Positions 37,349 to 53,224 of a DNA stretch of 64,000 bases are shown in pieces (within the stretch, counting starts at the first letter, position 1; each line of letters begins with the position of its first letter). The notes below the pieces were generated by a model, which saw only the letters and a program-made list of their open reading frames with translations, made no database searches and was not told the origin of the DNA. Source of the DNA: Halanaerobiales bacterium (GTDB taxonomy: Bacteria > Bacillota > Halanaerobiia > Halanaerobiales > DTU029); contig JARRCS010000004.1 in assembly GCA_029981855.1 (NCBI GenBank), positions 88,074 to 152,073 on the forward strand, in the 5' to 3' direction. Position numbers and translations under genes: made by a program.

Positions 37349-38068
37349 TCACATTGTAAACCTTTCTCCCAGATAGAATTTACGGGCCAGCTCGCTGGCC
37401 GCTACCTCCTCCGAACTGCCGGAGAGCAGAATCCTGCCCTCATGCATGATATAGGCCCGGTCGGTGATGGAAAGGGTCTCCCTGACACTGTGGTCGGTAA
37501 TTAAAACCCCCAGGCCCCTCTCCTTTAAATAACTGATAATATTTTGAATATCGCAGACCGCAATCGGGTCAACCCCGGCAAAGGGTTCATCTAAAAGGAT
37601 AAAAGAGGGGTCTGTAGCCAGAGAGCGGGCTATCTCCACCCTTCTCCTCTCACCACCGGAAAGCTGAAATCCCTTTCTCTCCCTCAGATGGCTGATATTA
37701 AACTCTTCCATTAAATCCTCCAGTTTCTTTTCGGCCTCAGCAGCCGGGATATCCCGGGCCTGGAGGATGGCCAGGATATTCTCGGCCACGGTTAATTTAC
37801 GGAAGACCGATGGCTCCTGGGAGAGATAACCTATCCCCAGCCTAGCCCTCTTATAGACGGGTAGGTGGGTAATATTATGTTCATCGAGAAAGATCTCCCC
37901 CGCAGCCGGCTTAATCAGGCCAACGACCATATAAAAGGTGGTGGTTTTACCGGCCCCGTTCGGGCCGAGGAGACCGACAATCTCGCCCCTTTCTACGGTA
38001 AAATCAACCTCATCGACCACCCGGTGGTTATTATATTCCTTAACCAGGTTTCTGGCAGTGATAGTCAT
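37349..38068 (-). CDS. lptB: LPS export ABC ATPase LptB
   Basis: 239 residues. Walker [17 protein letters not shown], signature [16 protein letters not shown], Walker [17 protein letters not shown] and switch His in [11 protein letters not shown]; the [14 protein letters not shown] stretch is typical of LptB. It powers extraction of LPS by the LptF/G permeases at the inner membrane. The start codon abuts the lptA stop (TAGATG), so they are co-translated. Length and motifs are normal. Confidence 0.95.
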
Positions 38069-38710
38069 CTATTCCTCTCCTTTACCGGAAAATAATAACC
38101 TGGCCTGTCCGGAGAGAACGATGGTTTCCCGGGTAAGATTAACGGTAAGTTTTTCACCGGAGAACTGCTGTCCATCCTGCTCACCCCGGACATTCCCCTC
38201 CAGAATGGCGGTCTCTTCCGTCAGATTATAGGTAATAGTCTCTGCTTCAGCCCTGATCTTTTTAAACTCCAGGACTGGTTTACCCTTCACTACTGCCCTT
38301 CCAGATTGCTGGTGGTAGGTCAGGGTGGTTCCGGTCAGTACCAGATCCTCCCCGGTCAATCTGATATTCCCCTCAAAGAGGTACTCCTGCCGGTTTAAAT
38401 TGCCTTCCAGCTTATCCCCCTCTATCGTGTAATCGGGGTTATTAAAAACCACCCCTCCGCTCAAGACAATATCCTTGCTTTCCGTATTATACCTGGCCTT
38501 ATCTGCCGTTGCCCTGATCTCCTGATAGATAAGCAGGGCATTGCCTTCGGCAACTACTTCATAGGAGCCCTCACCGGAGATAAAGGTAATCTTATCACCG
38601 TAGATCCCCTGCTGCTCTTTAGCCCCTTTCTGCTCTTCTGCCAGTACTTGCAGGCTGGAAAAATATAATATCAGGACAGCAGTAAGTATCAATATCAGTG
38701 CTTTTTTCAT
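38069..38710 (-). CDS. lptA: Periplasmic LPS bridge protein LptA (OstA domain)
   Basis: 213 residues. The signal peptide ends near SLQVLAEE. Repeated jellyroll strands follow (DKITFISGEGSYEVVAEGNALLIYQEIRATADKARYN; IVLSGGVVFNNPDYTIEGDKLEG; EYLFEGNIRLTGEDLVLTG), the OstA pattern of LptA. LptA monomers stack head to tail between LptC and LptD and carry LPS over the periplasm. The start overlaps the lptC stop by one base. A second OstA-like gene lies at 46886-47629. Confidence 0.88.
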   Translation of the reverse strand: MKKALILILTAVLILYFSSLQVLAEEQKGAKEQQGIYGDKITFISGEGSYEVVAEGNALLIYQEIRATADKARYNTESKDIVLSGGVVFNNPDYTIEGDKLEGNLNRQEYLFEGNIRLTGEDLVLTGTTLTYHQQSGRAVVKGKPVLEFKKIRAEAETITYNLTEETAILEGNVRGEQDGQQFSGEKLTVNLTRETIVLSGQARLLFSGKGEE

Positions 38711-39288
38711 CAGCCTCTCTCCTTCCAGGTGAAATAGGCCTGTTTTGCCCTGTTTCCGTAAACGGTCAGTTTATTTAAATCAGGTCTGGCCTCAAAGCGG
38801 TCACCGGTAAGTGTAAAAAACGGGGCTCTGAATACAACTCCTCCCCTACCGGTAATCAGATTATGATCTTTTTGCCAGCTTAACTCTGCCGTCTCCATCT
38901 CCAGCTCGTCCTTATTAATCAGGATTGGTCCGGATAGGGTTAGTTCCCCTCTGCCGGACCGGTAGATACCCTTAGCAGCCATAACGGAATATAGCTTCTG
39001 CCTGGCCGGATTTAGGGCCTCAATGCTTACCGGAAGTAGTTTAAGTAAAGCCTTATCTTCGAAACTGCTCAACTCTGCAGAGCTTACCTCCCAGCATACT
39101 GTCCGTTCCTTGTTATATAAGGTAAGGTTAACCTCTTGAAATCTATCATCGGGTTTTGCCTCCGGCTGGGGAGCCGTATCATTACCGGGGTTTAGCCCTT
39201 CTCCTCTCTCCCCCCGGTAGGTAAAAGCAAAATACATACCTCCGATAATCATTATGATGATAGCCAGCAAGATATACTTTTTACCCAC
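38710..39288 (-). CDS. lptC: LPS transport protein LptC
   Basis: 192 residues with one N-terminal membrane anchor (YILLAIIIMIIGGMYFAFTY), a polar linker and an LptC-type beta jellyroll (FQEVNLTLYNKERTVCWEVSSAEL; GIYRSGRGELTLSGPILINKDELEMETAELSW; FTLTGDRFEARPDLNKLTVYG). It binds the LptB2FG complex and passes LPS to LptA. The GTG start follows AGGGG. It lies immediately before lptA, as in proteobacteria. Confidence 0.85.
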   Translation of the reverse strand: MGKKYILLAIIIMIIGGMYFAFTYRGERGEGLNPGNDTAPQPEAKPDDRFQEVNLTLYNKERTVCWEVSSAELSSFEDKALLKLLPVSIEALNPARQKLYSVMAAKGIYRSGRGELTLSGPILINKDELEMETAELSWQKDHNLITGRGGVVFRAPFFTLTGDRFEARPDLNKLTVYGNRAKQAYFTWKERG

Positions 39289-39351: not shown

Positions 39352-40491
39352 TTAATATCCTATATTCCCTTCACGCAAGACCAGCTCGGCCGTTCGCCTG
39401 ACCGCTCCCGGAGCACCCAGGGCATCTTTAATAGCCTTAAGTTCCCGCCTCATTCCTTCCAGGGCAGGGGGGCTATCCAGCAGACCGGCTGCCTCGGAGT
39501 AGATATTTTCGGCGGTGGCCTCCTCCTGGAGTAATTCGGGTACGACCTCCTTGCCGGCAATGATATTGGGGAGACCGATATAATCCAGTCTGACCAGGGC
39601 CCGACCGAGCCGGTAGGTAGACCAGCTAGTCTGGTAGATAATTATCATCGGTGTGCCTATGATGGCCGCCTCCAGGGTAGCGGTTCCGGAAGCTACAATC
39701 AGTAGACAGGCAATCTTCATTACCTCATAGGTAGACTGTTCAACCAGTTTTAAGGTAAGATTATAATTACCGGCCAGATCAGCTACTCTCCTGCGGTCGA
39801 TCCCCGCTGCCAGCGGCAGCACAAATTGATAATCCTTCCTCTCAGCCTGCAATCTCTCGGCAGCCTGCAACATCTCCGGTAGTAGCCTTTCAATCTCCTC
39901 TCTACGGCTCCCCGGCAGCAGACCGATAACCGGCCTTCCCGGGTCCAGCCTAAGTTTGGCCAGTATCTCCGCTTCATCTGCCTCAACCGTAACCAGATCA
40001 ACCAGGGGATGACCGACAAACTTAACTCTAGCCCCTACCTCACGGTAAACCTCAGCCTCCATCGGGAATACGGAGGCAATGGTAGCATTATATCTGGCCA
40101 TCCAGTGAGCCCTCCATCTGCCCCAGACCCAGGCGGATGGGCTAAAATAGTTAACAACCGGAATCCTCTTCTTGCTGGCAATCCGGGCCATCTGCATATT
40201 AAACCCCGAATAGTCTACCAGGAAGATAACATCCGGCTTTTCCCTGTCGATAGAGTTCTTTAATATTTTAAGATGTGTCAGGTGTTCTCTGATATTCTTC
40301 AGGGCCTCGAAAAAACCGATGGTACTGATAGCGGTCGGGTCGATTAAAATCCTGACCCCTTCCTTCGCTAAAAAGGTAGAACCCATACCGAAAAAGGTTG
40401 TCTCAGGGGCAAGCTGCTTGATCTCCCTGACAACCCGGGCAGCATGCATATCTCCCGAGACTTCACCGGCAACAACCATTATCTTTGCCAA
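39352..40491 (-). CDS. lpxB: Lipid-A-disaccharide synthase
   Basis: 379 residues, TTG start after GAGGTG. GT19 motifs: VVAGEVSGDMHAARVVREI at the start, VIFLVDYSGFNMQMARIASKKRIPVVNYFSPSAWVWGRWR in the middle, GLLPGSRREEIERLLPEML for UDP-sugar binding and VASGTATLEAAIIGTPMIIIYQTS near the end. It joins lipid X and UDP-2,3-diacylglucosamine at the cytoplasmic face of the inner membrane to form the disaccharide. It follows lpxI by 12 bp. Length is normal for the family. Confidence 0.95.
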   Translation of the reverse strand: MAKIMVVAGEVSGDMHAARVVREIKQLAPETTFFGMGSTFLAKEGVRILIDPTAISTIGFFEALKNIREHLTHLKILKNSIDREKPDVIFLVDYSGFNMQMARIASKKRIPVVNYFSPSAWVWGRWRAHWMARYNATIASVFPMEAEVYREVGARVKFVGHPLVDLVTVEADEAEILAKLRLDPGRPVIGLLPGSRREEIERLLPEMLQAAERLQAERKDYQFVLPLAAGIDRRRVADLAGNYNLTLKLVEQSTYEVMKIACLLIVASGTATLEAAIIGTPMIIIYQTSWSTYRLGRALVRLDYIGLPNIIAGKEVVPELLQEEATAENIYSEAAGLLDSPPALEGMRRELKAIKDALGAPGAVRRTAELVLREGNIGY

Positions 40492-40503
40492 GGGTTTAAC
40501 ACC

Positions 40504-41322
40504 TCACTCAGGCGGGTTAGAATCCATAGCCATAATTACTATCCCATTTCTATCTGCCTCTTCTATTATCCTCTCTCTTGCCAGTAAAAAGGTTTTACCG
40601 GCCTCAATTACCAATCCCCTGGCCTTAACGGCTATCAGATTGCTGAGGGTATTCGCACCAACTGTAGGAATGTCAAAACGCCAGTCTTGCCGGGGTTTAC
40701 TCACCTTGGCCACAACCACTCCCGGGCCGCCCAGTGAGCCACCCCTTTGAATGGCCGCATCGGTCCCCTCTATCGCCTCAACGGCCAGTACGGTCCTATC
40801 TTTTACCACTACCGTCTGGCCGATATCCAGCCGGCCGATCTCTCTGGCCATTTTGAAACCGTATCTCATATCTGCCAGCAGTTCCTCATCGGGCTCATGG
40901 GATGTCAGTACCTCCGGTTCCGGAAAGAGGTCCTCAAGATAGGTGGACTGTTCGATTACCTCGATCCCCTCCCGGGCCAGTTCTCTGACAATCGCCAGCA
41001 TGATAGCATCATCATTCAGTTCCTTAAGCCCTGCCAGCAGTCTCTTCATCCTCCCGTCCAGGTTTAAATCCTGAAAGAACCGGGTCTTTTCCACCTTACC
41101 GATCATCACAACCTTTTTAATCTCATACCGGGAAAGTTGAGCAATCAGGCTATCCAGAGCCCCGATATTAACGTAACTGACCTTAGCGGCAATCCCCTCC
41201 AGAGGGTTATCCGCCTCTTCCACCAGCGGAAAGGCATAGACCTCATTCCCCTTTTCCCCGGCAGCCCTGGCCCAGATAGCGGGCAGTTCTCCCTTGCCGG
41301 CAATTAAACCGATCCTTGCCAT
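40504..41322 (-). CDS. lpxI: UDP-2,3-diacylglucosamine pyrophosphatase LpxI
   Basis: 272 residues of the LpxI (DUF1009) family: IGLIAGKGELPAIWARAAGEKGNEVYAFPL at the start, KVVMIGKVEKTRFFQDLNLDGRMKRLLAGLKELNDDAIMLAIV in the middle, and AIEGTDAAIQRGGSLGGPGVVVAKVSKPRQDWRFDIPTVG with the likely catalytic Asp near residue 190-220. It converts UDP-2,3-diacylglucosamine to lipid X and UMP. LpxI replaces LpxH in many non-enteric bacteria; no LpxH is in the window. It lies between lpxA and lpxB. Confidence 0.94.
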   Translation of the reverse strand: MARIGLIAGKGELPAIWARAAGEKGNEVYAFPLVEEADNPLEGIAAKVSYVNIGALDSLIAQLSRYEIKKVVMIGKVEKTRFFQDLNLDGRMKRLLAGLKELNDDAIMLAIVRELAREGIEVIEQSTYLEDLFPEPEVLTSHEPDEELLADMRYGFKMAREIGRLDIGQTVVVKDRTVLAVEAIEGTDAAIQRGGSLGGPGVVVAKVSKPRQDWRFDIPTVGANTLSNLIAVKARGLVIEAGKTFLLARERIIEEADRNGIVIMAMDSNPPE

Positions 41323-41379
41323 AATCTTCTACCACCTACACTAATTATGAGAATGCATAATACTAAATAGAAATCCTGG

Positions 41380-41438
41380 AAATAAACTTTAGAGTCATCA
41401 AAAAATTTCTACTGAATCGGAAACATCTATTGGTAGTT
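41380..41438. repeat. Solo right half of the palindromic intergenic repeat
   Basis: AATAAACTTTAGAGTCATCA then AAAAAATTTCTACTGAATCGG and AAACATCTATTGGTAGTTT match the right end of the element at 51097-51307 almost base for base. It lies between lpxI and the lpxA stop codon. Confidence 0.75.
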
Positions 41439-41439
41439 T

Positions 41440-42216
41440 CTAACGGCAGATGCCCCGCTGGGCATTCCTCAAAAAGCGCAAAAAGTGTTCGATCTCTTCA
41501 CTGGCATCCAGCTCCTGGTCCATCTTCTCGATAGCCTGAGAAATATTCAAATTAGACCTGTATAATATCTTATAGGCTTTTTTAATCTCCTGCCTCAGTT
41601 CCGGCTCAACACCGTTACGGCGCAGACCGACAACATTGATCCCGTTAACCCGGGCCGGATGGCCATCAACAAGCACATAAGGCGGGACATCCTTAACCAC
41701 CTTGGAATGGGCCCCGACCATAGACATCTTACCGATCCTGACGAACTGGTGGATGCCGCATAACCCCGACAGGACAGCATGATCCTCGATAATAACGTGA
41801 CCGGCCAGGTTAGTAGCATTGGACATAATAATATGATTTCCTAACTGGCAATCATGAGCCACATGGCAGTAGGCCATGATCAGATTATCATTACCGATCC
41901 AGGTCTCACCTCCACCTTCCTCTGTTCCCCGGTGGATGGTAACATACTCCCTGATAATATTGTTATCACCGATAAATAAATAACTCTTTTCACCCTTAAA
42001 CTTCATATCCTGGGGGATCAAGCCGATAGAAGCACCGTGAAAGATCTGATTATTCTTGCCGATAGTTGTCCAGCCATCAAGAACAACATGGGAACCGACT
42101 ACCGTTCCCTCACCGATCTCAACATTCTCGCCCACAATACTGTAAGGCCCGATCTCTACATTCTTACCGATCTTTGCCCCCGGATGAATTATGGCCGTCG
42201 GGTGAATCCTGGCCAT
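41440..42216 (-). CDS. lpxA: UDP-N-acetylglucosamine acyltransferase LpxA
   Basis: 258 residues from the ATG at 42216, where family similarity begins (MARIHPTAIIHPGAKIGKNVEIGPYS); a ribosome site (GAGGG) is thirteen bases away, so an upstream TTG near 42249 may be used instead. Hexapeptide repeats (I-G-x-x-x-x) fill the first two thirds; the catalytic His segment is MAYCHVAHDCQLGNHIIMSN; and the C-terminal HQFVRIGKMSMVGAHSKVVKDVPPYVLVDGHPARVNGINVVGLRRNG is diagnostic. It adds the first acyl chain to UDP-GlcNAc. Placed after fabZ, as usual. Confidence 0.94.
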   Translation of the reverse strand: MARIHPTAIIHPGAKIGKNVEIGPYSIVGENVEIGEGTVVGSHVVLDGWTTIGKNNQIFHGASIGLIPQDMKFKGEKSYLFIGDNNIIREYVTIHRGTEEGGGETWIGNDNLIMAYCHVAHDCQLGNHIIMSNATNLAGHVIIEDHAVLSGLCGIHQFVRIGKMSMVGAHSKVVKDVPPYVLVDGHPARVNGINVVGLRRNGVEPELRQEIKKAYKILYRSNLNISQAIEKMDQELDASEEIEHFLRFLRNAQRGICR

Positions 42217-42264
42217 ATGGAGCAATTTACCCTCACGCTTTGGTTCCAATACTCCCACTCCCCT

Positions 42265-42696
42265 CTACTTATCATCAATTGCAAACATCAATTCGGCCTC
42301 AGCGGCAATCTCATCCTCAACATACCCCTTGGCAGAGACCTTGGCAACCCTGCCCCTTAGTTTGATAATCTCAACCTCTATCCTTAACCTGTCTCCCGGG
42401 ACTACCGGCCGGCGGAACCTGGCCTTATCAATCCCGGCAAAGAAGGGCAATTTCTCTTCCGGGTTTTCTAAACTCTGCATCATAAGAAAACCGCCTACCT
42501 GGGCCATCGACTCGATAATTAAAACCCCCGGCATGATGGGATGGCCGGGATAATGACCCTGGAAGAACTCCTCATTCATGGTAACATTCTTTATACCGAC
42601 TACCCTTTTACCGGATTCTATCTCCTCAATTCTATCAACCAGTAAAAAGGGATAGCGGTGGGGTAAAAGATTTTGAATTTCATTAATGTACATCAT
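42265..42696 (-). CDS. fabZ: (3R)-hydroxyacyl-ACP dehydratase FabZ
   Basis: 143 residues. Motifs: IQNLLPHRYPFLLVDRIEEIESGKRVVGIKNVTMNEEFFQGHYPGHPIMPGVLIIESMAQVGG carries the hot-dog-fold active-site His and Glu; the rest forms the second half of the fold. It removes water from beta-hydroxyacyl-ACP. In LPS-bearing bacteria it competes with LpxA and LpxD for hydroxyacyl-ACP, which explains the lpxC-fabZ-lpxA gene order seen here. Confidence 0.95.
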   Translation of the reverse strand: MMYINEIQNLLPHRYPFLLVDRIEEIESGKRVVGIKNVTMNEEFFQGHYPGHPIMPGVLIIESMAQVGGFLMMQSLENPEEKLPFFAGIDKARFRRPVVPGDRLRIEVEIIKLRGRVAKVSAKGYVEDEIAAEAELMFAIDDK

Positions 42697-42704
42697 AGAT
42701 TAAC

Positions 42705-43559
42705 TCACCTTCCTGGATTATTTTTTTCTCTGATCTTTTTAGCTAGTTCTACATGTAAATAATGCCCTGATCTGACAGCTATAATATGCCCTCTGATAAA
42801 GCCGTTTAAAGCCATATCACCGATAACATCCAGTATTTTATGTCTGACAAATTCATCAGGAAAACGGAGTGGGTTAACGGTTTCTTCCTCACCGATTAAA
42901 ACAGCATTTTCTAAACTTCCGCCCAGTGCCAGGCCCCTTCTATGTAAGGCCTCAACCTCCCGTTCAAAACCGAAGGTCCGGGCCGGAGCAATCTCATCTA
43001 TAAAGGAGTTTTCCTCCTGATCAAACTCATAAAACTGAGTCCCGATAACGGGATGGTCATAATCCAGTGTATAGCTTATTTTAAACCCCTCATAGGGTAG
43101 AATAACCAGATACATTTTACCTTTTTTTACCCAGAGGGGCTGATCAATCTTCCAGACTTGTCTCGGAGCCCCAAGTTCCTTAATTCCTGCCTTTTGCAAC
43201 AGTTTAATAAAGGGGAGGGCACTACCGTCCCCCACCGGTGTCTCTGCATTATCAATCTCGATGATAATATTATCGACTCCCATCGCCCAGAAGGCAGACA
43301 TCATATGTTCGACAGTATGGACTCTGGGTTGATCTTCCCCCGCAAGCCCGATACTGGTACATCTTCTTGTTGAGACGACCTTAAAGGAATCCGCCTTGAT
43401 CTCGGGCTTTTCCGGTAGATCGATCCGGCGAAAGATAATTCCCCTGTTAGCTTCAGCAGGAAGGCATTTAATATTAACCTCTTTTCCGGTATGGAGTGCA
43501 ATACCTGAATACTCAATCGGATTAGCTATCGTCTTTTGTAATTCACCTTCCCTGAACAT
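42705..43559 (-). CDS. lpxC: UDP-3-O-acyl-N-acetylglucosamine deacetylase LpxC
   Basis: 284 residues, ATG after GGAGG. Zn-site motifs: RVHTVEHMMSAFWAMGVDNIIIEIDNAETPVGDGSALPF with the first His, and FVRHKILDVIGDMALNGFIRGHIIAVRSGHYLH with the later His and Asp. First committed step of lipid A synthesis. Normal length; the FabZ-fused form seen in Bacteroidetes is not present. It heads the run of eleven genes down to 34454. An upstream GCAGGATTTTT motif lies at 43615-43605. Confidence 0.95.
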   Translation of the reverse strand: MFREGELQKTIANPIEYSGIALHTGKEVNIKCLPAEANRGIIFRRIDLPEKPEIKADSFKVVSTRRCTSIGLAGEDQPRVHTVEHMMSAFWAMGVDNIIIEIDNAETPVGDGSALPFIKLLQKAGIKELGAPRQVWKIDQPLWVKKGKMYLVILPYEGFKISYTLDYDHPVIGTQFYEFDQEENSFIDEIAPARTFGFEREVEALHRRGLALGGSLENAVLIGEEETVNPLRFPDEFVRHKILDVIGDMALNGFIRGHIIAVRSGHYLHVELAKKIREKNNPGR

Positions 43560-43628: not shown

Positions 43629-44363
43629 TTAATTATAATTTATGATATTTTTATACTTTTTACCTATCCAGGAGGTGGGATGATTAAAAACCTCTTCCGG
43701 AGGACCCGATTCAATAAACTTACCCCTGTCCATAAAATAGATCCTGTCAGCAACCCTCCGGGCAAAAGTTACCTCATGGGTAACGATAATCATCGAAGTA
43801 TTCTTTCTTTCCTGGATAATATTCTCTAAAACATCGAGTACCTCTCTGATCAGGATAGGGTCCAGGGAGGCGGTCGGTTCATCGAGGAGAATCAAGTCCG
43901 GTTCCAGGACCAGTGCCCGGGCAATACCAACCCGCTGTTTCTCCCCGCCACTTAGTTTATCAATATAATAATCGGCCATTTTTTCTAAACCAACATCCTT
44001 TAAAGCCAGTATGGCCCTTTCATAGGCTTCCTCAATGCTTAATCCCTTTTTAACTAAACCCAGGGCAACATTCTGTTTTGCCGTCAAACGCCGGATCAGG
44101 TTAAAGTGCTGAAAAACAAAACCAATATCCTGTCTTACCTCTTCCAGCTCCGCTGAGTTCAGGTTGTGAATAGCAATACCCTTAAAATAGATCTCACCGG
44201 AATCCGGTTCGATTAAACGGTTGATGGAGCGAATAAAGGTGGATTTACCGCATCCGCTTGGTCCCATGATGGCAACAATCTCCCCGGGTTTTATCTCCAG
44301 ATTGATTCCATCTAATACTATATCATTGTCGTACTTCTTTTTCAAATTAATTACTTTTAACAT
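43629..44363 (-). CDS. ABC transporter ATPase of the polar-amino-acid (GlnQ) sequence type
   Basis: 244 residues with AGGAGG before the ATG. Walker A GPSGCGKSTFIRSINRL, Q-loop FQHFNLIRRLTAKQNV, signature LSGGEKQRVGIARAL, Walker B LILLDEPTASLDP and switch VTHEVTFARRVADRIYFMDRG. By sequence this resembles GlnQ/HisP-type ATPases rather than LptB or MlaF. No solute-binding protein gene accompanies it. The only partner in reach is the large membrane protein upstream (44440-46797), so the pair probably forms an unusual transporter. Substrate unknown. Confidence 0.88.
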   Translation of the reverse strand: MLKVINLKKKYDNDIVLDGINLEIKPGEIVAIMGPSGCGKSTFIRSINRLIEPDSGEIYFKGIAIHNLNSAELEEVRQDIGFVFQHFNLIRRLTAKQNVALGLVKKGLSIEEAYERAILALKDVGLEKMADYYIDKLSGGEKQRVGIARALVLEPDLILLDEPTASLDPILIREVLDVLENIIQERKNTSMIIVTHEVTFARRVADRIYFMDRGKFIESGPPEEVFNHPTSWIGKKYKNIINYN

Positions 44364-44439
44364 CGCTTTCCTCCTGGAATTAACTGTAGAATATTAATAG
44401 AGTCTGTTTGGTTCAGTAATAACTGCAAACCTAAATTTT

Positions 44440-46797
44440 TCATTTAAATATAACTTTAGGGTAATTCAGGAGATATAGCAGCCCGGGTTTACCGGCTGGA
44501 ATAATAATCTCCTGCATAATTTCCGCAGTAGAAAAACCCAGAGCCTTTCCTGCCTCCCATTCCTCCTTATTAACCGGATTGAGCATATTGGCAAAAAAGG
44601 CCACAATTAAGCCCAGGATTCCCCCGATGATAAACTCCGTCTTGAAATCCAGGTAATGAAAATCTATCCGGCTTAAGAAACAGATCAGACTGAAGATTAG
44701 ACCACCGCTCAAAAAACCGTAGATAAAGCCATTGCCCCCATTCAGTCTGACTACACTGATAATCAAGGTCTGATCCAGAATCATAACCAGCAGGGTAAAG
44801 ACCAGGGCAATAATGATGGAAATAACAGCCTTGACCTGTCTTAAGATATTAAAGACCTCCCCCCGGGGGTTGGGGGTAATATACCCCGCTTCCATTTCAA
44901 TAAAACTTACTGCCGGATTCTTAATCACCGTCCTGATCTCTTTAACCAGTTCCTTACCGTTATACTGCCCCTTCAGTAATAGCTGGATCTGATCCCCTGG
45001 TATTACCTGACCGGCGAGATAACTATCGATTAGATTGATGGTCTCCACAATCTCCGCTTCCTTTAGGTCTGGCAGGGAGTTCTGGATATATGACAGCTGA
45101 TCAAGGACAACCGGCAGCTGGGTTGTTTTTAACTCAATCAGTAAATCCTGAATTGATCTTAACTTATCCTGTAGTTTACCTGTATCTATTATTTGGGCGG
45201 TCTCATCTATCTGACCGATAACAGTCTCTACCTTCTGCCAGTCAGCCCCGCTATTAAGGGTATCCTCCACCCTTAGCAGGGAATTTATTTTCTCCTTCCA
45301 GTCATCGATAGAGCTCAAAACCGGATTCATATTATTTAATCTTTGGGCCACCAGATCATAGTTATTATCCAGAGCGATAGCCAGCTGTAAAAACAGGTTT
45401 TTCAATTCATTTAGCTCTTGATAAATGCTATTATTCCTGGGGACAAAGATCAATTTCTCCTCAATCAAACCTGCCCCCTCTTTTAACTTATTACTGGTCT
45501 TAATCAGGTCCTGCTGGATATCGTTAATATCACCGACATTAGTCTTGATATCATCCAAAATCTTTAGCAAATCCTCTAAAAAGGTGGAAAGTCCTTCCTG
45601 CTGCCATTCCTGGAGGGTTTTCCTTAAATTCTGGCTGGTCTTCTCCAGCTGACTCAGGCCCTGATTGACGTTAGCCAGGTCCTCACTCAGCCGCTCACTG
45701 TACTCAACCATCTGCTCGCTCTGCTCAAGAAAACCATTAAGGCTGGGGGTAATCTCATTGAGACTTTCCAGGGCATCGGCCAGGTCCTGGCGCGGGTTAT
45801 TTACCTTCCCTTCTCCGAGCCATCTCTCTCCAGTACCGTCCCGGCTTGGCAAATAAACATCAAGGGAATCTATCTGGATATTATTTAGGTCCCCCTCCTG
45901 AATGAGGGCAAGTAGCTGGTTATCCCGATTGTCTATCACCTCTAAAACGATTCTCCTGCCATCACCGGTCCTGGCAATAAGCCTGCTGCCGATAGCTATC
46001 TCCTTACTGTCCTCTAATTCGGAGACCACTATCTTGGTTGCATAAGATAGGAGAAAGGTCTTCATCTGTTTCAGGCTCGTCAACAGCGCCAGCCGGTCTG
46101 ACTTATCATTCCTGGTGACATCTATCACATTATCCAGATCATCCCTGATCAGGTTATAGATTCTCTCCTGTATCCTGGGCAAGTTCTCCGAATGCTGGTT
46201 AAGCGGGTACCTGATCTCCAGCAACCTGTATTGCTCAAGGATATTAGCTATCTTTTTTTTGACCTCAGGGAGTAGTTCCGGTTTCTCCACAATAATATCC
46301 AGACCGTCACCCGTCGGGTAGAGGAAATCAATCCCCTCAATCTCCTCTATATATGACCTCATTACCGGTCTGGTATTCCCCCTAAAACCCCTAACCGATA
46401 AACGGGGCTCAGTCATAATCGTCTTGCTCATCAATCCCGGTATATCGGCAAAGTACTTGCCGAGATTGATATACGTCTCTTCATTTTTATATTCATCCGG
46501 TAATTTAAGTAAGTAATTGCTGCTACCTGCAACCCTGGGCCCTGTCTTAAATTTTGAACCGGGCAGGGTTTCAGCAGCAATTTTTTTAATCTGTTTCAGG
46601 GCTATATCCTCCTTATCGGTGGTCAGGGTAAATAACAGGTCATATTCACCGTACTCACCGATAAGACCGCTCACCATACTGGCAAAGTAATTATCAGTAA
46701 GATAACCCCCAACCAAGACCAGGACAGTTCCCAGTAAGATGGAGGTTATCAATAGAGTCAGAATTCCCTTTTTAAAATTGGACCGCAAAAGAAACAT
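44440..46797 (-). CDS. Large ABC-type permease with long extracytoplasmic coiled-coil region
   Basis: 785 residues from the ATG at 46797; a promoter with -10 at 46829-46824 leaves only a short leader, so the earlier ATG/TTG near 46821 is unlikely. One membrane segment (GILTLLITSILLGTVLVLVGGYL) is followed by about 620 extracytoplasmic residues. The first 300 are mixed alpha/beta; the rest is coiled coil (EQSEQMVEYSERLSEDLANVNQGLSQLEKTSQNLRKTLQEW). Three or more membrane segments end the protein, followed by KALGFSTAEIMQEIIIPAGKPGLL, which looks like the EAA loop by which permeases contact their ATPase. I recognise no named family. A trans-periplasmic transporter of lipid or another envelope component is an inference. 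Confidence 0.6.
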   Translation of the reverse strand: MFLLRSNFKKGILTLLITSILLGTVLVLVGGYLTDNYFASMVSGLIGEYGEYDLLFTLTTDKEDIALKQIKKIAAETLPGSKFKTGPRVAGSSNYLLKLPDEYKNEETYINLGKYFADIPGLMSKTIMTEPRLSVRGFRGNTRPVMRSYIEEIEGIDFLYPTGDGLDIIVEKPELLPEVKKKIANILEQYRLLEIRYPLNQHSENLPRIQERIYNLIRDDLDNVIDVTRNDKSDRLALLTSLKQMKTFLLSYATKIVVSELEDSKEIAIGSRLIARTGDGRRIVLEVIDNRDNQLLALIQEGDLNNIQIDSLDVYLPSRDGTGERWLGEGKVNNPRQDLADALESLNEITPSLNGFLEQSEQMVEYSERLSEDLANVNQGLSQLEKTSQNLRKTLQEWQQEGLSTFLEDLLKILDDIKTNVGDINDIQQDLIKTSNKLKEGAGLIEEKLIFVPRNNSIYQELNELKNLFLQLAIALDNNYDLVAQRLNNMNPVLSSIDDWKEKINSLLRVEDTLNSGADWQKVETVIGQIDETAQIIDTGKLQDKLRSIQDLLIELKTTQLPVVLDQLSYIQNSLPDLKEAEIVETINLIDSYLAGQVIPGDQIQLLLKGQYNGKELVKEIRTVIKNPAVSFIEMEAGYITPNPRGEVFNILRQVKAVISIIIALVFTLLVMILDQTLIISVVRLNGGNGFIYGFLSGGLIFSLICFLSRIDFHYLDFKTEFIIGGILGLIVAFFANMLNPVNKEEWEAGKALGFSTAEIMQEIIIPAGKPGLLYLLNYPKVIFK

Positions 46798-46823
46798 CTG
46801 CCTTTCACTCCTATCCATCAACT

Positions 46824-46853
46824 ATTATACCATCTGATGGAAGGAGCTGTAAA
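46824..46853 (-). promoter_or_regulatory. Promoter for the large permease and ATPase genes
   Basis: On the minus strand TTTACA (46853-46848), an 18-base spacer and a perfect TATAAT (46829-46824) lie 27 bp before the chosen start codon. It allows the pair to be expressed apart from the lptA-like gene upstream. Confidence 0.65.
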
Positions 46854-46885: not shown

Positions 46886-47629
46886 TCAATTAGATGAAAT
46901 CTTCAATTCCAGCTCTACCTCACCATCAGCAGAGAATTCCCCGGTCTCCAGATAAAAGGTTGCCTGCCGGCTCTTAACCCAGTCACCGCTCTCTTCTTCA
47001 ATATAGACATTTCCTGTAAGTTTCAGGGTCTGCTCCCGGTCATTATAGGTTGCCCTGTCGGCCTTCAAAATGCGCTGATCATAGCTAATCACCACACCCT
47101 GTTCAGCCGTAAAGGACTTATCTTCAGCAAATAGCACCAGATAGGAGGTCTCAAGCTGCAGGCCTCCTTCTTTTTCCAGCTGCTGCTTTAGCTCAACCTT
47201 CCTCCTGAAGATATACTTATCTTCCGTCAGTAGGGCAGTCATCTCCAGAGATTTAATCTCTCCTTTACTGTGTTTTAAGAGAACATCACCCTCCAGTTCG
47301 GCCCTGCTTTCTTCCTTGAAATAGATACCCCGGGGAGCGGTTATATTATTATCCCCCTTAATGATGGTAATCCCGTCCCTGACCTCGATCCTTTCTTCCA
47401 TATAATTGAGGCGGCCCGCCCGGATATGGATAGTCTCCCCGGAAGATTCCCCGGAGGCTTTGGACTGATTCCCCTGGACCTCTCCGGAAACCTTCTCCTG
47501 ATCCTCTCCAGATGATTCGGACTTATCCTCCCCGGCCAGCACCCGCCCGTTAAACAACGGCATGGCCCCGGAGAGTAACACTCCGGTCAGTAACATCACG
47601 ATCAAAAAAACTATCATCAATTTTTTCAT
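46886..47629 (-). CDS. LptA/OstA-like periplasmic protein, second copy
   Basis: 247 residues. The signal peptide is long and ends near NGRVLAGE. A spacer rich in Ser, Gly and Glu (40-65) precedes OstA-type strands: IHIRAGRLNYMEERIEVRDGITIIKGDNNITAPRGIYFKEESRAELEGDVLLKHSKGEIKSLEMTALL, and later RILKADRATYNDREQTLKLTGNVYIEEE. It ends without a barrel. The family carries LPS or related lipids in the periplasm. It stands between the permease-LptD fusion gene and the large permease gene, so it may serve a second bridge. Confidence 0.75.
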   Translation of the reverse strand: MKKLMIVFLIVMLLTGVLLSGAMPLFNGRVLAGEDKSESSGEDQEKVSGEVQGNQSKASGESSGETIHIRAGRLNYMEERIEVRDGITIIKGDNNITAPRGIYFKEESRAELEGDVLLKHSKGEIKSLEMTALLTEDKYIFRRKVELKQQLEKEGGLQLETSYLVLFAEDKSFTAEQGVVISYDQRILKADRATYNDREQTLKLTGNVYIEEESGDWVKSRQATFYLETGEFSADGEVELELKISSN

Positions 47630-47717: not shown

Positions 47718-50700
47718 TCACTCTATTTCCAGCAAATCCCCGATCCCGAGATCGAACATAAAGGGTTCTTCCTCACTGCTGCCCAGCTTGATACCCTGAT
47801 CCGGGAAGAGGTTTATCCGGTATTCAATGGTAAACTCCTGATTTAAATAATCATAGCTAAAACCAAGTTCACGGCAGTGGAAGTTCTTCTTCAGCAGCAG
47901 GTTAGCCTTCTTGAGGGTATTATCTTCATTATCATAACTCGTATTCAGGGCGAAATACCACTCATCCTTCAGGTCAAAGATAAGCTGGTTATCTACCTGC
48001 TGGAGGAGTTTATCCTCCAGGTTATACTTGAGGGCTGAATTAACCTCCCAGACTTCGTTCTTATATTTGCTGGTAAGGGCCAGATCACCGAAACTCCCGG
48101 AGTCAGGATCATAATAGGTCCCCGCCCCGATCTTCCAGTCCGGGTTTACCTGCCAGTCCAGGAGTGCCTGTAAGGGGAAGTATTCCCGCCCGTAGAGATC
48201 ATAACCGGTACTAAACCTGAGATCCAGCCCGCCCGAGCGGTAACTGAGCTTACTATTTATACTCTCCTTAAAATTAACCCGGTCAAAGTTAAAGGGGGTT
48301 TGACCGGTGTATCCCTGAAAGCTATACCGGTTATTCCAGGTCAGGCCCCTGGTCAGGGTAGTCTTTAGCCCTATATGGCTCTCGTAGGAAGCCAGATAGG
48401 GTTCGAGCTCGGGATTATAATCTCTTTGATAGCTATTTAAGGAGTTATCTCCGTAATCTATTCCCCAGTAGAATTTGCCGGTCAGGGTCTGTCCTGTACT
48501 CAGAGTAGTCCCGTTACTCAGATGCCACCTTCCGTCATAGGTTATCTTCCCCAGGCCGCGGTAACCCTTAATCCCGGAAGCATCCTCATAATATCTCCCC
48601 AGAAGCAGCTGATAACTTACGTTTCCAGGAGGCCGGTACTTGAGGTCAACCTCGGGCCAGCGGTAAAAGGTTACCTTATCATCGTCCTCGCTGAATCCGG
48701 GGGCATACCTCTCCAGGGTCAACTTAAAATCAAGATTGCCGGCCCGCCTGGCCAGGTAGCTCCTGCTCCCCCACCTCTTTTTTAACCCGTCCTCCGGATT
48801 ATAGAGGTAATCCCGGTTATAACCCAGATCTAAAAACCAGTCATTATCCAGTTTCCGACGGTAGGAAAAATCCAGGTTCAGCATCTTATCATCATTATGA
48901 TCGCTCTCAAAGTAATCCTTACTGTCAAAGCGGGAAGAAAAATTTATCAACTGCTTATTACTAATATTAGCCACATATGTGCTGCCATTTAATATACTGT
49001 GATCATCATAATAGGTATATTTAAGCAAGGTATCAGTCCGCCAGTCACCCTGCTGATCCTCAAGATCAACCGCCCCCTGCCAGCGGAACAAACCGGGCAG
49101 ATCTGTCCGGTTCTCCTGACCGTAGAGATAAAGGGATCCTTTAAGATCGGGCTCGTAATAAAGGTATTGTTTTAATCCCCCTCCATAGCCAGAGATGGTA
49201 TAGTAATCGAGGTATAATTCACCGGGCAGCCGCTGGTCATACCAGTAATTATAGGTGGTCTTAATAAACCAGCCCCTAGTTGCACTATAACCGATCTCAG
49301 GAATCAGGTGCTGCGGTCTATCCTTTAATGAAATATAAAGATAGGGCCAGTAAAAAAGGGGCAGCTTACCGCCGAGCTCCCGGAAGACCACTTCTCTGGC
49401 CACCAGGTAATCATCGGGATAGATGATAACCTCTCTAGCCTCAAAATAATAGTGTGGTTTGTCCAGTTCACAGCCGGTTATCTTCCCCCCGGAGATTAGA
49501 ATCTCCCGGGGAGCGGTCTCTATCTTCTCCGAGCCGTTATCATACTTGATGATCAGCTTATCTGCCTTGATATGGAATCTCTGATAAAAACCGCTGATAT
49601 CCCCCATAAGCTCCATTTGCCCCGTTTCCTTCTGATACTGCAGATGGTCTATACCCTTAAGCTTCAGTTTAGTGCCGGCACCGGAAGCAGCCTTAACATT
49701 TTCAGCAAAAGTATTAGTTTCAGTACCGGAAACGGTTGCCGGCCAGATAAATAGCAGCAAAAGAATTATGGCCAAAAAGGGTAACAAACGATTCAGCCAG
49801 TTCTGCCAGCTCTCTCTCCAGATAAGGAGAATAATCCCGATAAGGGCAAAGACTAAATTCGGCAGCCAGGCAGCAAGCAGCGGTGGAAGCTCCCCGTTTC
49901 GGCCGAAGGAACGGGAGAGAGAAAGAATCAGATAAAAGAGAAAGACGATCACAATTGTCAAAATAATACTGGCCGAGCGGCTGTCCTTATTACTGAGGCT
50001 TAAGGGGGTTCCGATCAGGATAAAGATCAGGGCCGTCAGGGGCATGGCCAGCTTTAAGTGATAGTCTATCAACAGGGAATCTACATTTATCCCGCTTTTC
50101 TTAAAGAGGTCAATCTCCTTTTTCAGCCTCTCCCGGCTCATCTCGGAGGTAGTTCTCTGTTCACCGAAGAAGTTTTCCATATCCCCGACCAGTTGATACT
50201 CCATAACCTCAAAGCGGCTCTCCAGGGTTAGATCTCCGTCATCTGTATATTGGTGAATAATCCCACTCTCCAGGCGCCACCTGTTTTTGACTACCCTGCC
50301 CCTTTGAGCTGTGATTATCTCGGGAAAGCCACTCCTGTCAGGGAAATTGTAGATCACAATCTTCTCCAGGGTGCTGGTCTTTTCATTATATTTATTAACA
50401 TAAAAGAGCCTGCCTTCCGGGCCCTTAAAGAAGACGTTCTCCCGGATATCAGGCATAGCCTGCTTTAAAATGGACTGTCTGATAATATTCTGGGCCTGAT
50501 GATTGCTCCAGGGGACCACCTCTTCATTGAGCAAATAGGTCGCCCCGCTGATAAAAACTCCCAGGATGATCAGGGGTAAAATCAGCCTGTAGAGGCTAAT
50601 CCCTCCCATTCTTAGGGCTGTGAACTCATTCTCCCTATTCAGTCTCCCCATTCCTGCCATGGTGGCAAACAAAATTGAGATGGGAAAGGTCTGGACGATA

Positions 50701-50897
50701 ATCTCCGGCAGCTGGTAGAAAAGGAGTCTGAGCACCAGGGCCAGAGGAATATCTTTTATAATAATCAGGTCTGTTAGCTGAAAGAGAAAACTACTTAGCA
50801 TAATAATCTCGATAATGGCTACCCCGACCAGAAAGGGAATTAAAACCTCTCTTATTATGTAAAAATCGATAATCTTTATCTGCCAGAATTTAATCAT
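47718..50897 (-). CDS. LptF/LptG permease fused to LptD in one reading frame
   Basis: 1059 residues from the ATG at 50897 (GGAGAG six bases upstream). Residues 1-360 are a complete YjgP/YjgQ permease: three helices, GRLNRENEFTALRMGG, a periplasmic jellyroll and three helices. A seventh hydrophobic segment (LLPFLAIILLLLFIWPATVSG, about 371-391) looks like a signal peptide with a small-residue cleavage site. An OstA/LptD linker follows (GMELMGDISG-like strands; TGCELDKPHYYFEAREVIIYPDDYLVAREVVF; LPLFYWPYLYIS), then about 530 residues of beta-barrel strands ending GDLLEIE. No ribosome site precedes an internal start. Cleavage would release an inner-membrane LptF/G and an outer-membrane LptD. Confidence 0.85.
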   Translation of the reverse strand: MIKFWQIKIIDFYIIREVLIPFLVGVAIIEIIMLSSFLFQLTDLIIIKDIPLALVLRLLFYQLPEIIVQTFPISILFATMAGMGRLNRENEFTALRMGGISLYRLILPLIILGVFISGATYLLNEEVVPWSNHQAQNIIRQSILKQAMPDIRENVFFKGPEGRLFYVNKYNEKTSTLEKIVIYNFPDRSGFPEIITAQRGRVVKNRWRLESGIIHQYTDDGDLTLESRFEVMEYQLVGDMENFFGEQRTTSEMSRERLKKEIDLFKKSGINVDSLLIDYHLKLAMPLTALIFILIGTPLSLSNKDSRSASIILTIVIVFLFYLILSLSRSFGRNGELPPLLAAWLPNLVFALIGIILLIWRESWQNWLNRLLPFLAIILLLLFIWPATVSGTETNTFAENVKAASGAGTKLKLKGIDHLQYQKETGQMELMGDISGFYQRFHIKADKLIIKYDNGSEKIETAPREILISGGKITGCELDKPHYYFEAREVIIYPDDYLVAREVVFRELGGKLPLFYWPYLYISLKDRPQHLIPEIGYSATRGWFIKTTYNYWYDQRLPGELYLDYYTISGYGGGLKQYLYYEPDLKGSLYLYGQENRTDLPGLFRWQGAVDLEDQQGDWRTDTLLKYTYYDDHSILNGSTYVANISNKQLINFSSRFDSKDYFESDHNDDKMLNLDFSYRRKLDNDWFLDLGYNRDYLYNPEDGLKKRWGSRSYLARRAGNLDFKLTLERYAPGFSEDDDKVTFYRWPEVDLKYRPPGNVSYQLLLGRYYEDASGIKGYRGLGKITYDGRWHLSNGTTLSTGQTLTGKFYWGIDYGDNSLNSYQRDYNPELEPYLASYESHIGLKTTLTRGLTWNNRYSFQGYTGQTPFNFDRVNFKESINSKLSYRSGGLDLRFSTGYDLYGREYFPLQALLDWQVNPDWKIGAGTYYDPDSGSFGDLALTSKYKNEVWEVNSALKYNLEDKLLQQVDNQLIFDLKDEWYFALNTSYDNEDNTLKKANLLLKKNFHCRELGFSYDYLNQEFTIEYRINLFPDQGIKLGSSEEEPFMFDLGIGDLLEIE

Positions 50898-51508
50898 AAA
50901 CAACTCTCCACTAAATTAATCTTTCACTTTATTAGATATTTTACGACAATATTTACGACAGGTCAATTTTTACAAACACCTAGAATATCAGGTCATCTGG
51001 CTCTTAGCAAATTATTCACCGGGCCTTCTTAGGCCTTCTTACTATCATTAAATTAATGCCTCTCTTTGTTCGGCAACTTACTTTTTACCTTCAAACAACT
51101 GCAAATAGATGTTAGAGAGATGTTTGGAAATTTTTTGTATATGACTCTTGGTGAATCGAAAGGAAAAATTAGGTCGAGCCAAAGGACGTGGCGAGCTAAT
51201 TCAGGGTCAGGATGACCCATTGAATTAGGTAACCTAAATTTTTCTTGGAGATGAACCTTAGAGTCATCAAAAAATTTCCACTGAATCGGAAACATCTATT
51301 TGCAGTTTGCAAAAAAAATTTCCTAATAGTATTAAACTATATTAGTTAGTATATTATCAATAAACCATATTATTATACTTCTACCATTATAGCCTGATAC
51401 CTGCAACACACCTGCAACCAAAAACTGCCAACAAATAACAAAAGGATTTAGGGAACCGGGGTTTAATATATTAAATATGACTTAAATGTAAAAAAAATGG
51501 GGGATCTT
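50898..51508. other. Divergent intergenic region carrying a palindromic repeat
   Basis: 611 bases between divergent genes. The 211-bp palindromic element fills 51097-51307. The remainder is AT-rich and should hold the promoters for the fusion gene on the left and the protease gene on the right, but I could not fix either with confidence. Confidence 0.55.
51097..51307. repeat. Full-length palindromic MITE-like element
   Basis: AACTGCAAATAGATGTT (51097-51113) and its exact reverse complement (51291-51307) bound the element; similarity of the two ends continues inward for about 50 bp (GGAAATTTTTTG, GACTC). Inside, AAAAATTAGGT pairs with ACCTAAATTTTT, and CTAATTCA-GGGTCA pairs with TGACCC-TGAATTAG, so the whole can fold into one long hairpin with side arms. 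No transposase frame is present. Partial copies lie at 9322, 36178, 41380, 53976 and 56651. Confidence 0.8.
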
Positions 51509-53224
51509 ATGGGAATTATTTCATTTAATAAAAATCATGTCGGCTATAGTAAGAATAAAGTTAAAATTATATCTCTGCTACTTATTGCCTTATCTCTTTT
51601 TTTATTAACGGGATGTTCCAACCGTGCCCGGGATGATGACCTGATTATCCGGGGCCAGGTCAAAATTGCAGGTCTTGACGGTATCCAATTTATTGCCAGC
51701 CGGCCAAATATAACTGATATAACTAACTGGATAAATATTAATACAGTACCAGAAGAGCCCGCACTTTATAATCCGGGTGAGTACATAGTAAAATTTACCA
51801 AAAATCTAACCGTTAAATATATCGATGAGGAAATACTGAAGGGTTACGGCAAGACCTTAAGAAAAATTGCCGGTAATACATATAAGATCAAAATTACCTC
51901 TTCTGAAAAGTTTAATCTGATTGATTCTCTGGCCAATAATCCTCTGATATCTTATATCGAGCCCGATTATCTGGTTCATATTCAGGATTATACTGTTCCT
52001 AATGACCCGGGATATTCTCAACAGTGGAATCTTAAAATGCTGGGATTAAGCAGGACCTGGAACAGCTATCAGGGCAGTAATAACGTAGTGGTAGCGGTGG
52101 TTGATACGGGTATCCTGCCGGGTCATCCCGACCTGAAGGATAACCTGGTCCCCGGTTATGATTTTGTAGATAATGATAATGACCCGACCGATACGGACCC
52201 AAACTTCAGCCACGGAACCCATGTCGCCGGTATTATCGGTGCTGTTACCAATAACAGAGAGGGAATCGCCGGAATTAACTGGCATGTCAGGATAATGCCT
52301 GTCAGGGTAATAGGGCCGGGAGGAAGCGGAGGCTATAGTGCCCTTATCTCCGGTATCCGGGAGGCAGTTGACAGGGGGGCAGATGTTATTAATCTCAGCC
52401 TGGCTGGAGAGGTGGATTCACCTTCCCTGCATGATGCGGTAAAATATGCGGTAGCTAAGGGAGTTACCGTTGTTGCTGCCGCCGGGAATAATAACTCAAC
52501 CCCGATCCTCTACCCGGCACGCTATCCTGAAGTCATCAGTGTGGGGGCTATTGGTCCGACAAAGGAAAGGGCCTACTACTCCAACTACGGTCCGAACTTA
52601 GACCTGGTAGCACCGGGTGGTGATAGTTCGGTATTCTCTGCGGAGATTAATTCCATCCTCAGCACTGCAGGTTATATGGAGTCAACCGGGCCGGTCCATC
52701 AATACACTTATGCCCAGGGAACCTCAATGGCAGCACCCCATGTCTCGGGACTGGTAGCCCTGCTTTACAGTGCCGGGATAACTGATCCTGAGGATATTAA
52801 AGACCTTCTCAAAAGGACCGCTGATGACCTGGGGCCGGCTGGAGAAGATGACTGGTACGGTGCCGGTCTGGTTAATATCAATCGGGCTCTCGGTCTGGAT
52901 AACTATGGTCAGCCATCCCCAATGCCGGGTAGCGATAATAATGACAGTCTGGATCAGGCCCAGCTTTTGGGTCAGGTAAAGATCTTGGCAGCCAGGGAAG
53001 AAGAGGGGAATAAGGTGGGCAAAACAACTACTACCACCGATAGCAACGGCAGATTCAACCTCAAACTTAGTCCCGGCACCTGGACGATCAGCGGTTGGCT
53101 CGATATAAACGGCAATGAGGAGATCGATGCCGGCGATTACTACGGGGCGGTTGAGAATATCCAGATCAACCGAGATAGTGTAGATGAGATAATTACTCTT
53201 GAATTGACCAAGTTAATAAAATGA
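51509..53224 (+). CDS. Subtilisin-like (S8) serine protease lipoprotein
   Basis: 571 residues from the ATG at 51509 (GGGGGAT upstream). A lipobox LLTGC places the lipidated Cys near residue 36. A propeptide-like region (YIVKFTKNLTVKYIDEE to SYIEPDYLVHIQ, about 90-160) precedes the S8 domain. The catalytic triad is Asp199 in VVDTGI, His235 in SHGTHVAG and Ser406 in GTSMAAPH; the oxyanion Asn is in AAAGNNNS. The last 100 residues form a beta domain (GRFNLKLSPGTWTISGWLDINGNEEIDAGDYYG) like carboxypeptidase-regulatory folds. It should act in the periplasm or at the outer surface. Its opposite orientation interrupts the envelope locus. Confidence 0.92.
   Translation: MGIISFNKNHVGYSKNKVKIISLLLIALSLFLLTGCSNRARDDDLIIRGQVKIAGLDGIQFIASRPNITDITNWININTVPEEPALYNPGEYIVKFTKNLTVKYIDEEILKGYGKTLRKIAGNTYKIKITSSEKFNLIDSLANNPLISYIEPDYLVHIQDYTVPNDPGYSQQWNLKMLGLSRTWNSYQGSNNVVVAVVDTGILPGHPDLKDNLVPGYDFVDNDNDPTDTDPNFSHGTHVAGIIGAVTNNREGIAGINWHVRIMPVRVIGPGGSGGYSALISGIREAVDRGADVINLSLAGEVDSPSLHDAVKYAVAKGVTVVAAAGNNNSTPILYPARYPEVISVGAIGPTKERAYYSNYGPNLDLVAPGGDSSVFSAEINSILSTAGYMESTGPVHQYTYAQGTSMAAPHVSGLVALLYSAGITDPEDIKDLLKRTADDLGPAGEDDWYGAGLVNINRALGLDNYGQPSPMPGSDNNDSLDQAQLLGQVKILAAREEEGNKVGKTTTTTDSNGRFNLKLSPGTWTISGWLDINGNEEIDAGDYYGAVENIQINRDSVDEIITLELTKLIK

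Follow-up and report, generated by a model that had tools for sequence, protein, structure and literature searches.

An ABC ATPase-permease pair with an importer-type engine in the lipopolysaccharide gene clusters of diderm Bacillota, a candidate component of outer-membrane biogenesis

Two adjacent genes of a lipopolysaccharide (LPS) cluster, coding for an ABC ATPase and a large permease-like protein, constitute a real and conserved pair that is undescribed as far as searched. On balance, our analyses favour its interpretation as a dedicated outer-membrane-biogenesis ABC machine of diderm Bacillota, in which an engine derived from amino-acid importers would act by mechanotransmission on an LPS or other Lpt-dependent lipid step. 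Diderm Bacillota hold a central place in the debated question of whether bacteria started out with two membranes, and only part of their outer-membrane machinery has been identified. A conserved ABC machine that lies in the LPS cluster and accompanies Lpt across the phylum makes a strong candidate for one of the missing components, and illustrates how an importer engine may be rebuilt for work on the periplasmic side.

The window, i.e. the whole stretch of DNA analysed (64,000 nucleotides from a Halanaerobiales bacterium), carries the pair head to tail on the minus strand, within a cluster ordered lptF-lptD, lptA/C-like, permease, ATPase, lpxC, fabZ, lpxA, lpxI, lpxB, lptC, lptA, lptB (Table 1). 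The open reading frames thereby confirm the placement between lpt genes and lpxC given in a preliminary description of this DNA, made from the sequence alone. The ATG is the better permease start, as first proposed, because in several close relatives an in-frame stop shortly precedes the equivalent methionine and because the region's best promoter-like site, with an extended -10, ends at 46824, 26 bases before that ATG. The pair's own promoter, also claimed in that description, is plausible; the site is a consensus match only (11/12), in a region with 18 such sites against 10.9 +/- 3.0 in shuffles. No substrate-binding-protein gene or domain was recognised in the window neighbourhood or in the inspected sample loci, in agreement with the absence of a solute-binding protein noted at the outset.

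Table 1. Positions of the pair, of the permease elements and of the neighbouring genes in the window; residue numbers of permease features follow the 793-aa frame (TTG start).
Feature	Position	Strand	Evidence or remark
Cognate ABC ATPase, 244 aa	43629..44363	-	ORF
Permease-like protein, 785 aa from ATG	44440..46797	-	ORF; TTG at 46821 gives 793 aa
TM1 with helical extension, residues 15-54	46660..46779	-	AF2, hydropathy
Ferredoxin/ACT-like domain 1, extracytoplasmic, residues 58-138	46408..46650	-	Z 8.9, rmsd 2.3, 73-75 residues
Second ferredoxin-like half, residues 139-204	46210..46407	-	Z about 7.5
Six-stranded beta-barrel, residues 262-343	45793..46038	-	EF-Tu/aIF2-gamma domain III-like, Z 7.9, rmsd 3.0, 78 residues
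Variable helical bundle / coiled coil, residues 344-602	45016..45792	-	
Beta-alpha-beta element before TM2, residues 611-649	44875..44991	-	AF2
TM2 with helical extension, residues 652-693	44743..44868	-	AF2, hydropathy
TM3, residues 698-716	44674..44730	-	AF2, hydropathy
TM4, residues 726-747	44581..44646	-	AF2, hydropathy
EAA coupling loop, residues 754-779; 14 residues to protein end	44485..44562	-	
Promoter-like site TTTACA-18-TATAAT, TG before -10	46824..46853	-	11/12 consensus match only
lpxC (context)	42705..43559	-	family PF03331
fabZ, lpxA, lpxI, lpxB (context)	39352..42696	-	
lptC, lptA, lptB (context)	37349..39288	-	
LptA/LptC-like periplasmic protein (context)	46886..47629	-	
LptF fused to LptD-like C-terminal region, 1061 aa (context)	47718..50903	-	

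In the ATPase, the Walker A motif, the signature, Walker B and the H-loop are all intact. In a maximum-likelihood tree of 67 ATPases, including host-genome paralogues, the 34 family ATPases formed one clade (99/99), which fell within the paralogues of the host genome as sister to polar-amino-acid importer ATPases (99/98); its initial reading as GlnQ-like and importer-type was thus well founded. The permease points the same way. Its EAA loop, already suspected from the window, has exactly the importer spacing (E-A-x4-G-x9-I-x-I-P), and the C-terminal stretch that holds it is better conserved than any other part, with a mean pairwise identity of 55% vs 27-40% elsewhere. The suggested comparison with BPD_transp_1 (PF00528) gave matches in the C-terminal region of 31 of the 51 family members (best E 4.8e-6, with the C-terminal profile), and a search of all PDB sequences returned as its top five MetI, PotC and ArtQ-type permeases, each aligned through the EAA loop and with E-values that are individually weak but in agreement (0.014-0.074). 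Likewise, hhalign scored the permease C-terminus at 96% to importer permeases vs 0.5% to FtsX-type permeases of the same genome, and the family profile, run on whole genomes, also pulled out bona fide permeases of amino-acid importers (E 4e-5 to 1e-3), of which the inspected ones adjoin binding-protein and ATPase genes. Judged from these alignments, the loop is a true importer-type coupling loop, homologous to that of importer permeases; this homology and the sister position of the ATPase clade together indicate that engine and coupling loop share importer ancestry. The Pfam and hhalign comparisons assigned the pair neither to MacB/FtsX exporters nor to any defined importer system, matches named beforehand as contrary evidence.

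Resemblance to the polar-amino-acid importers (GlnQ/ArtP ATPases; ArtQ/HisM/GlnP permeases with BPD_transp_1) extends to the alignment of permease TM2-TM4 and EAA loop with importer core helices 1-3 and EAA loop, in which the homology of TM2-TM3 is less certain than that of TM4 and the EAA loop. Unlike these importers, the pair has no substrate-binding protein, and its permease has gained an N-terminal helix and an extracytoplasmic head of ~600 residues. Furthermore, the conserved core of the aligned members ends about 14-22 residues past the EAA loop, a few members carrying short C-terminal tails without a hydrophobic helix, so that the two importer core helices that follow the loop are absent in every one of them. 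This absence weighs against a retargeted importer, which would return a lipid, sugar or LPS fragment from the periplasm or outer membrane with the head as its built-in binding domain. Fused binding domains are common in the importer family, and the head could parallel them on an ATPase and EAA loop of importer origin; however, fold searches recognised no periplasmic-binding-protein fold in the head, and conservation in the LPS locus does not suggest nutrient uptake. We consider this alternative quite unlikely.

Hydropathy places one hydrophobic segment at the N-terminus of the permease and three at its C-terminus, with ~600 extracytoplasmic residues between them, bearing out the single N-terminal helix and C-terminal membrane bundle originally described. 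An AlphaFold2 (AF2) model computed from a family alignment of 47 sequences (mean pLDDT 79.9) predicts TM1 and TM2 as ~40-residue helices flanking the head and a short TM3-TM4 loop; the TM2-TM3 loop, considered here outside any complex, has about 4 residues in the window and is longer in other members. Since a full-length fold search against the PDB was swamped by helical bundles, the head (first 345 residues) was folded by itself (pLDDT 88.2). The invariant GEYGEYD region marks the start of the first ferredoxin/ACT-like domain. The predicted ACT/ferredoxin-like and aIF2-gamma domain III matches are to common folds and show no function, and a match to RND porter domains was weak (E 1e-3 to 7e-2, TM-score about 0.1). 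MacB and MCE folds were not among the fold matches listed, which excludes neither. The ~620-residue coiled coil of the preliminary description therefore holds only for the helical part at about residues 344-602, the rest consisting of two ferredoxin-like domains, a beta-barrel and a beta-alpha-beta element.

In overall architecture the permease resembles the Type VII systems (MacB/LolCDE/FtsEX/YbbAP), as seen by hydropathy and AF2: one helix, a large periplasmic domain and three helices, with long TM1 and TM2 carrying a head with ferredoxin-like subdomains and no obvious substrate path across the membrane. In MacB, too, long TM1 and TM2 flank the periplasmic head and the TM3-TM4 loop is short (PMC5985334). 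In contrast to these systems, the ATPase belongs to an importer clade and the permease lacks FtsX-domain homology: no member had a Pfam match to the FtsX domain (PF02687), the permease was not among the FtsX matches of its own genome, and hhalign gave 0.5-5%. The coupling element appears to differ as well, being the C-terminal EAA loop in the permease, whereas the major coupling helix of MacB lies between TM2 and TM3 (PMC5985334).

The helical bundle is poorly conserved and is the most length-variable part of the protein, with 141-146, 201-212 or 245-262 residues according to lineage. In a divergent clade (P0003-P0006, 616-657 aa) it is reduced to only about 100 residues, while the head, the membrane helices, the EAA loop, the adjoining ATPase and lpxC are all kept. 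A tunnel across the periplasm, as first suggested for the long coiled coil, is unlikely to be the conserved role of the bundle because of these lengths (141-262 residues, and about 100 in one clade). More broadly, a bridge or tunnel carrying lipids through the periplasm, comparable to the MCE or Lpt bridges, would suit the large ectodomain and the Lpt neighbours, and the coil weakly matches an MCE-family model (TIGR00996, E 1e-3, far below cut-off, with no Pfam MCE match). However, the bundle helices are predicted at no more than 57 residues, or about 85 A, against the 24 nm measured in Veillonella (PMC10665443); the short-bundle clade has the same synteny, and no lipid groove or barrel was recognised in the single-chain models. 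We regard such a bridge as very unlikely. Pfam and NCBIfam coil matches (GrpE, Mce4_CUP1 and similar) were set aside as coiled-coil chance matches. As a separate observation, loci of the coil-less clade have a class-III aminotransferase between the Lpt genes and the permease, at L109:4669-6042 (PF00202, E 8e-108) and in the same place in L110-L112.

MlaFED/MCE systems share with the pair a coil-rich periplasmic part and, in Negativicutes, an outer-membrane gene neighbourhood, but the permease has no MlaE or Pfam MCE-domain match. MlaE was found in 8/149 Bacillota, five of these with the permease; among Lpt-positive genomes it occurs in 5/31 with the permease vs 3/5 without, which tends to exclusion (Fisher 0.06). 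A role of the pair as an Mla replacement was not adopted, MlaE being absent from all 61 Halanaerobiia-centred genomes, including those without the permease. LptB2FGC and MsbA are neighbouring ABC systems of LPS export, encoded by separate genes within the same clusters, and the LptF_LptG domain (PF03739) was not among the Pfam matches listed for 47 permease members.

Profile searches within Bacillota recovered permease homologues from Halanaerobiia, Sporomusaceae and other Bacillota. The family is present in 28/61 relatives and in Halothermothrix orenii (G012), whose copy (L008) is 60% identical, and a scan of GTDB contigs yielded 56 loci, including Orenia, Natroniella, Frackibacter, Sporomusa, Anaerospora, Pelosinus and Propionispora. 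Wherever a locus extends 1 kb or more downstream (86 loci, some of them sharing a genome), the next gene after the permease is that of the ATPase. Of the 66 loci that reach at least 5 kb to one side, 65 have an Lpx, FabZ or Lpt gene nearby. Among 149 evenly sampled Bacillota genomes, taken without quality values, the permease occurs in 31 of 36 genomes with LptF/G and in none of the 113 without (Fisher 4e-27, phylogeny ignored). The association with LPS/Lpt genes first read from one locus thus extends to nearly every locus and to all 31 permease-bearing genomes of the sample, and the link of the pair to the outer membrane is strong. Co-occurrence with lpxC, put forward earlier as a check, was found in part: 25 genomes have both, with 6 and 6 discordant. 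As LpxC agrees less well than LptF/G, the pair tracks Lpt rather than lipid A synthesis.

This distribution also bears on a signalling or regulatory module, which would either activate a periplasmic enzyme as FtsEX does or sense the state of the envelope and adjust LpxC or LPS synthesis. The MacB/FtsX-like topology would fit such a role, as would the proximity of lpxC in 42 of 60 loci (those with at least 3.5 kb downstream). Nevertheless, 17 loci keep the pair with lpt genes and without lpxC nearby, six permease-positive genomes have Lpt and no LpxC match at all, and the adjoining genes do not regularly include one for a hydrolase or for signalling; we therefore judge this explanation unlikely. 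The pair is, moreover, dispensable in some lineages, since five Lpt-positive genomes lack it. In the four of these with lpxC no substitute occupies its place, other genes lying directly beside lpxC; in one of the pair-less genomes (L104) the ORF beside lpxC resembles a Sporomusa lipid A acyltransferase.

Some individual loci depart from the common arrangement. Bacillota loci L040, L041, L061-L070, L075 and L118-L121 carry Lpt genes and the ABC pair with no lpxC nearby, and most of these clusters include a divergent LpxB-like glycosyltransferase; the six such genomes without any LpxC match suggest that Lpt may be used there without canonical lipid A. A Selenomonadales MAG has the pair (L037:10001-13066) without a recognised LPS/Lpt gene within 10 kb on either side, and an Anaerospora genome (G062, the genome of L033) has two full-length permease copies in separate places, on contigs C12 and C19.

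Taken as a machine of outer-membrane biogenesis, the pair would presumably assemble as two permease chains and two ATPases. Its engine, ATPase and EAA loop, descends from a polar-amino-acid importer. Of the importer permease, probably only the coupling loop and the first three core helices remain; the last two helices are missing, and the N-terminal helix and the extracytoplasmic head have been added. Closure of the ATPase dimer on ATP would be passed through the EAA loop to a 2 x (1+3) helix bundle and from there, along the long TM1 and TM2, to the periplasmic heads, which would move. In MacB and LolCDE, ATP-driven closure moves the periplasmic domains and no substrate passes through the membrane (PMC5985334; PMC12646458). 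Mechanotransmission as in MacB/LolCDE/FtsEX, rather than solute import, is proposed because the pair lacks a binding protein, its importer core is truncated and its head sits on long TM1 and TM2. We infer both substrate and mechanism; the work done would most likely be an inner-membrane step in the export of LPS or another Lpt-dependent lipid. Which step is not obvious, since MsbA-like and Lpt ABC systems are already encoded in the same cluster. More tentatively, it is quite possible, if somewhat short of probable, that the pair represents a separate class of ABC system that arrived at mechanotransmission independently of MacB/FtsX, from half an importer permease and its ATPase, and is dedicated to an ATP-driven step in the export of outer-membrane lipids in diderm Bacillota, a lineage in which it probably existed early.

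No described system matching the pair was found in the openly licensed papers searched, in line with the preliminary description, which knew of none of this form. Antunes et al. (2016) reported a conserved outer-membrane locus and three unknown proteins, none of which is this pair (PMC5007114), and the passages searched in the Veillonella Mla paper (PMC10665443) and in the H. orenii genome paper (PMC2626281) do not describe it. Antunes et al. also reported that LptD/E were absent, as were LolA/LolB from Negativicutes (PMC5007114). In the 1061-aa ORF of the window, an LptF/LptG permease domain at the N-terminus (Pfam E 5e-100) is followed by a C-terminal region of ~700 aa, and the predicted product joins an inner-membrane permease to a protein resembling LptD, which that study did not report in these organisms. 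In a homologue (L119:2258-5536) the C-terminal region matches LptD_N. Beside the LPS cluster, a divergently transcribed gene (51497-53224, plus strand) codes for a lipoprotein-like subtilase (Peptidase_S8, E 1e-64).
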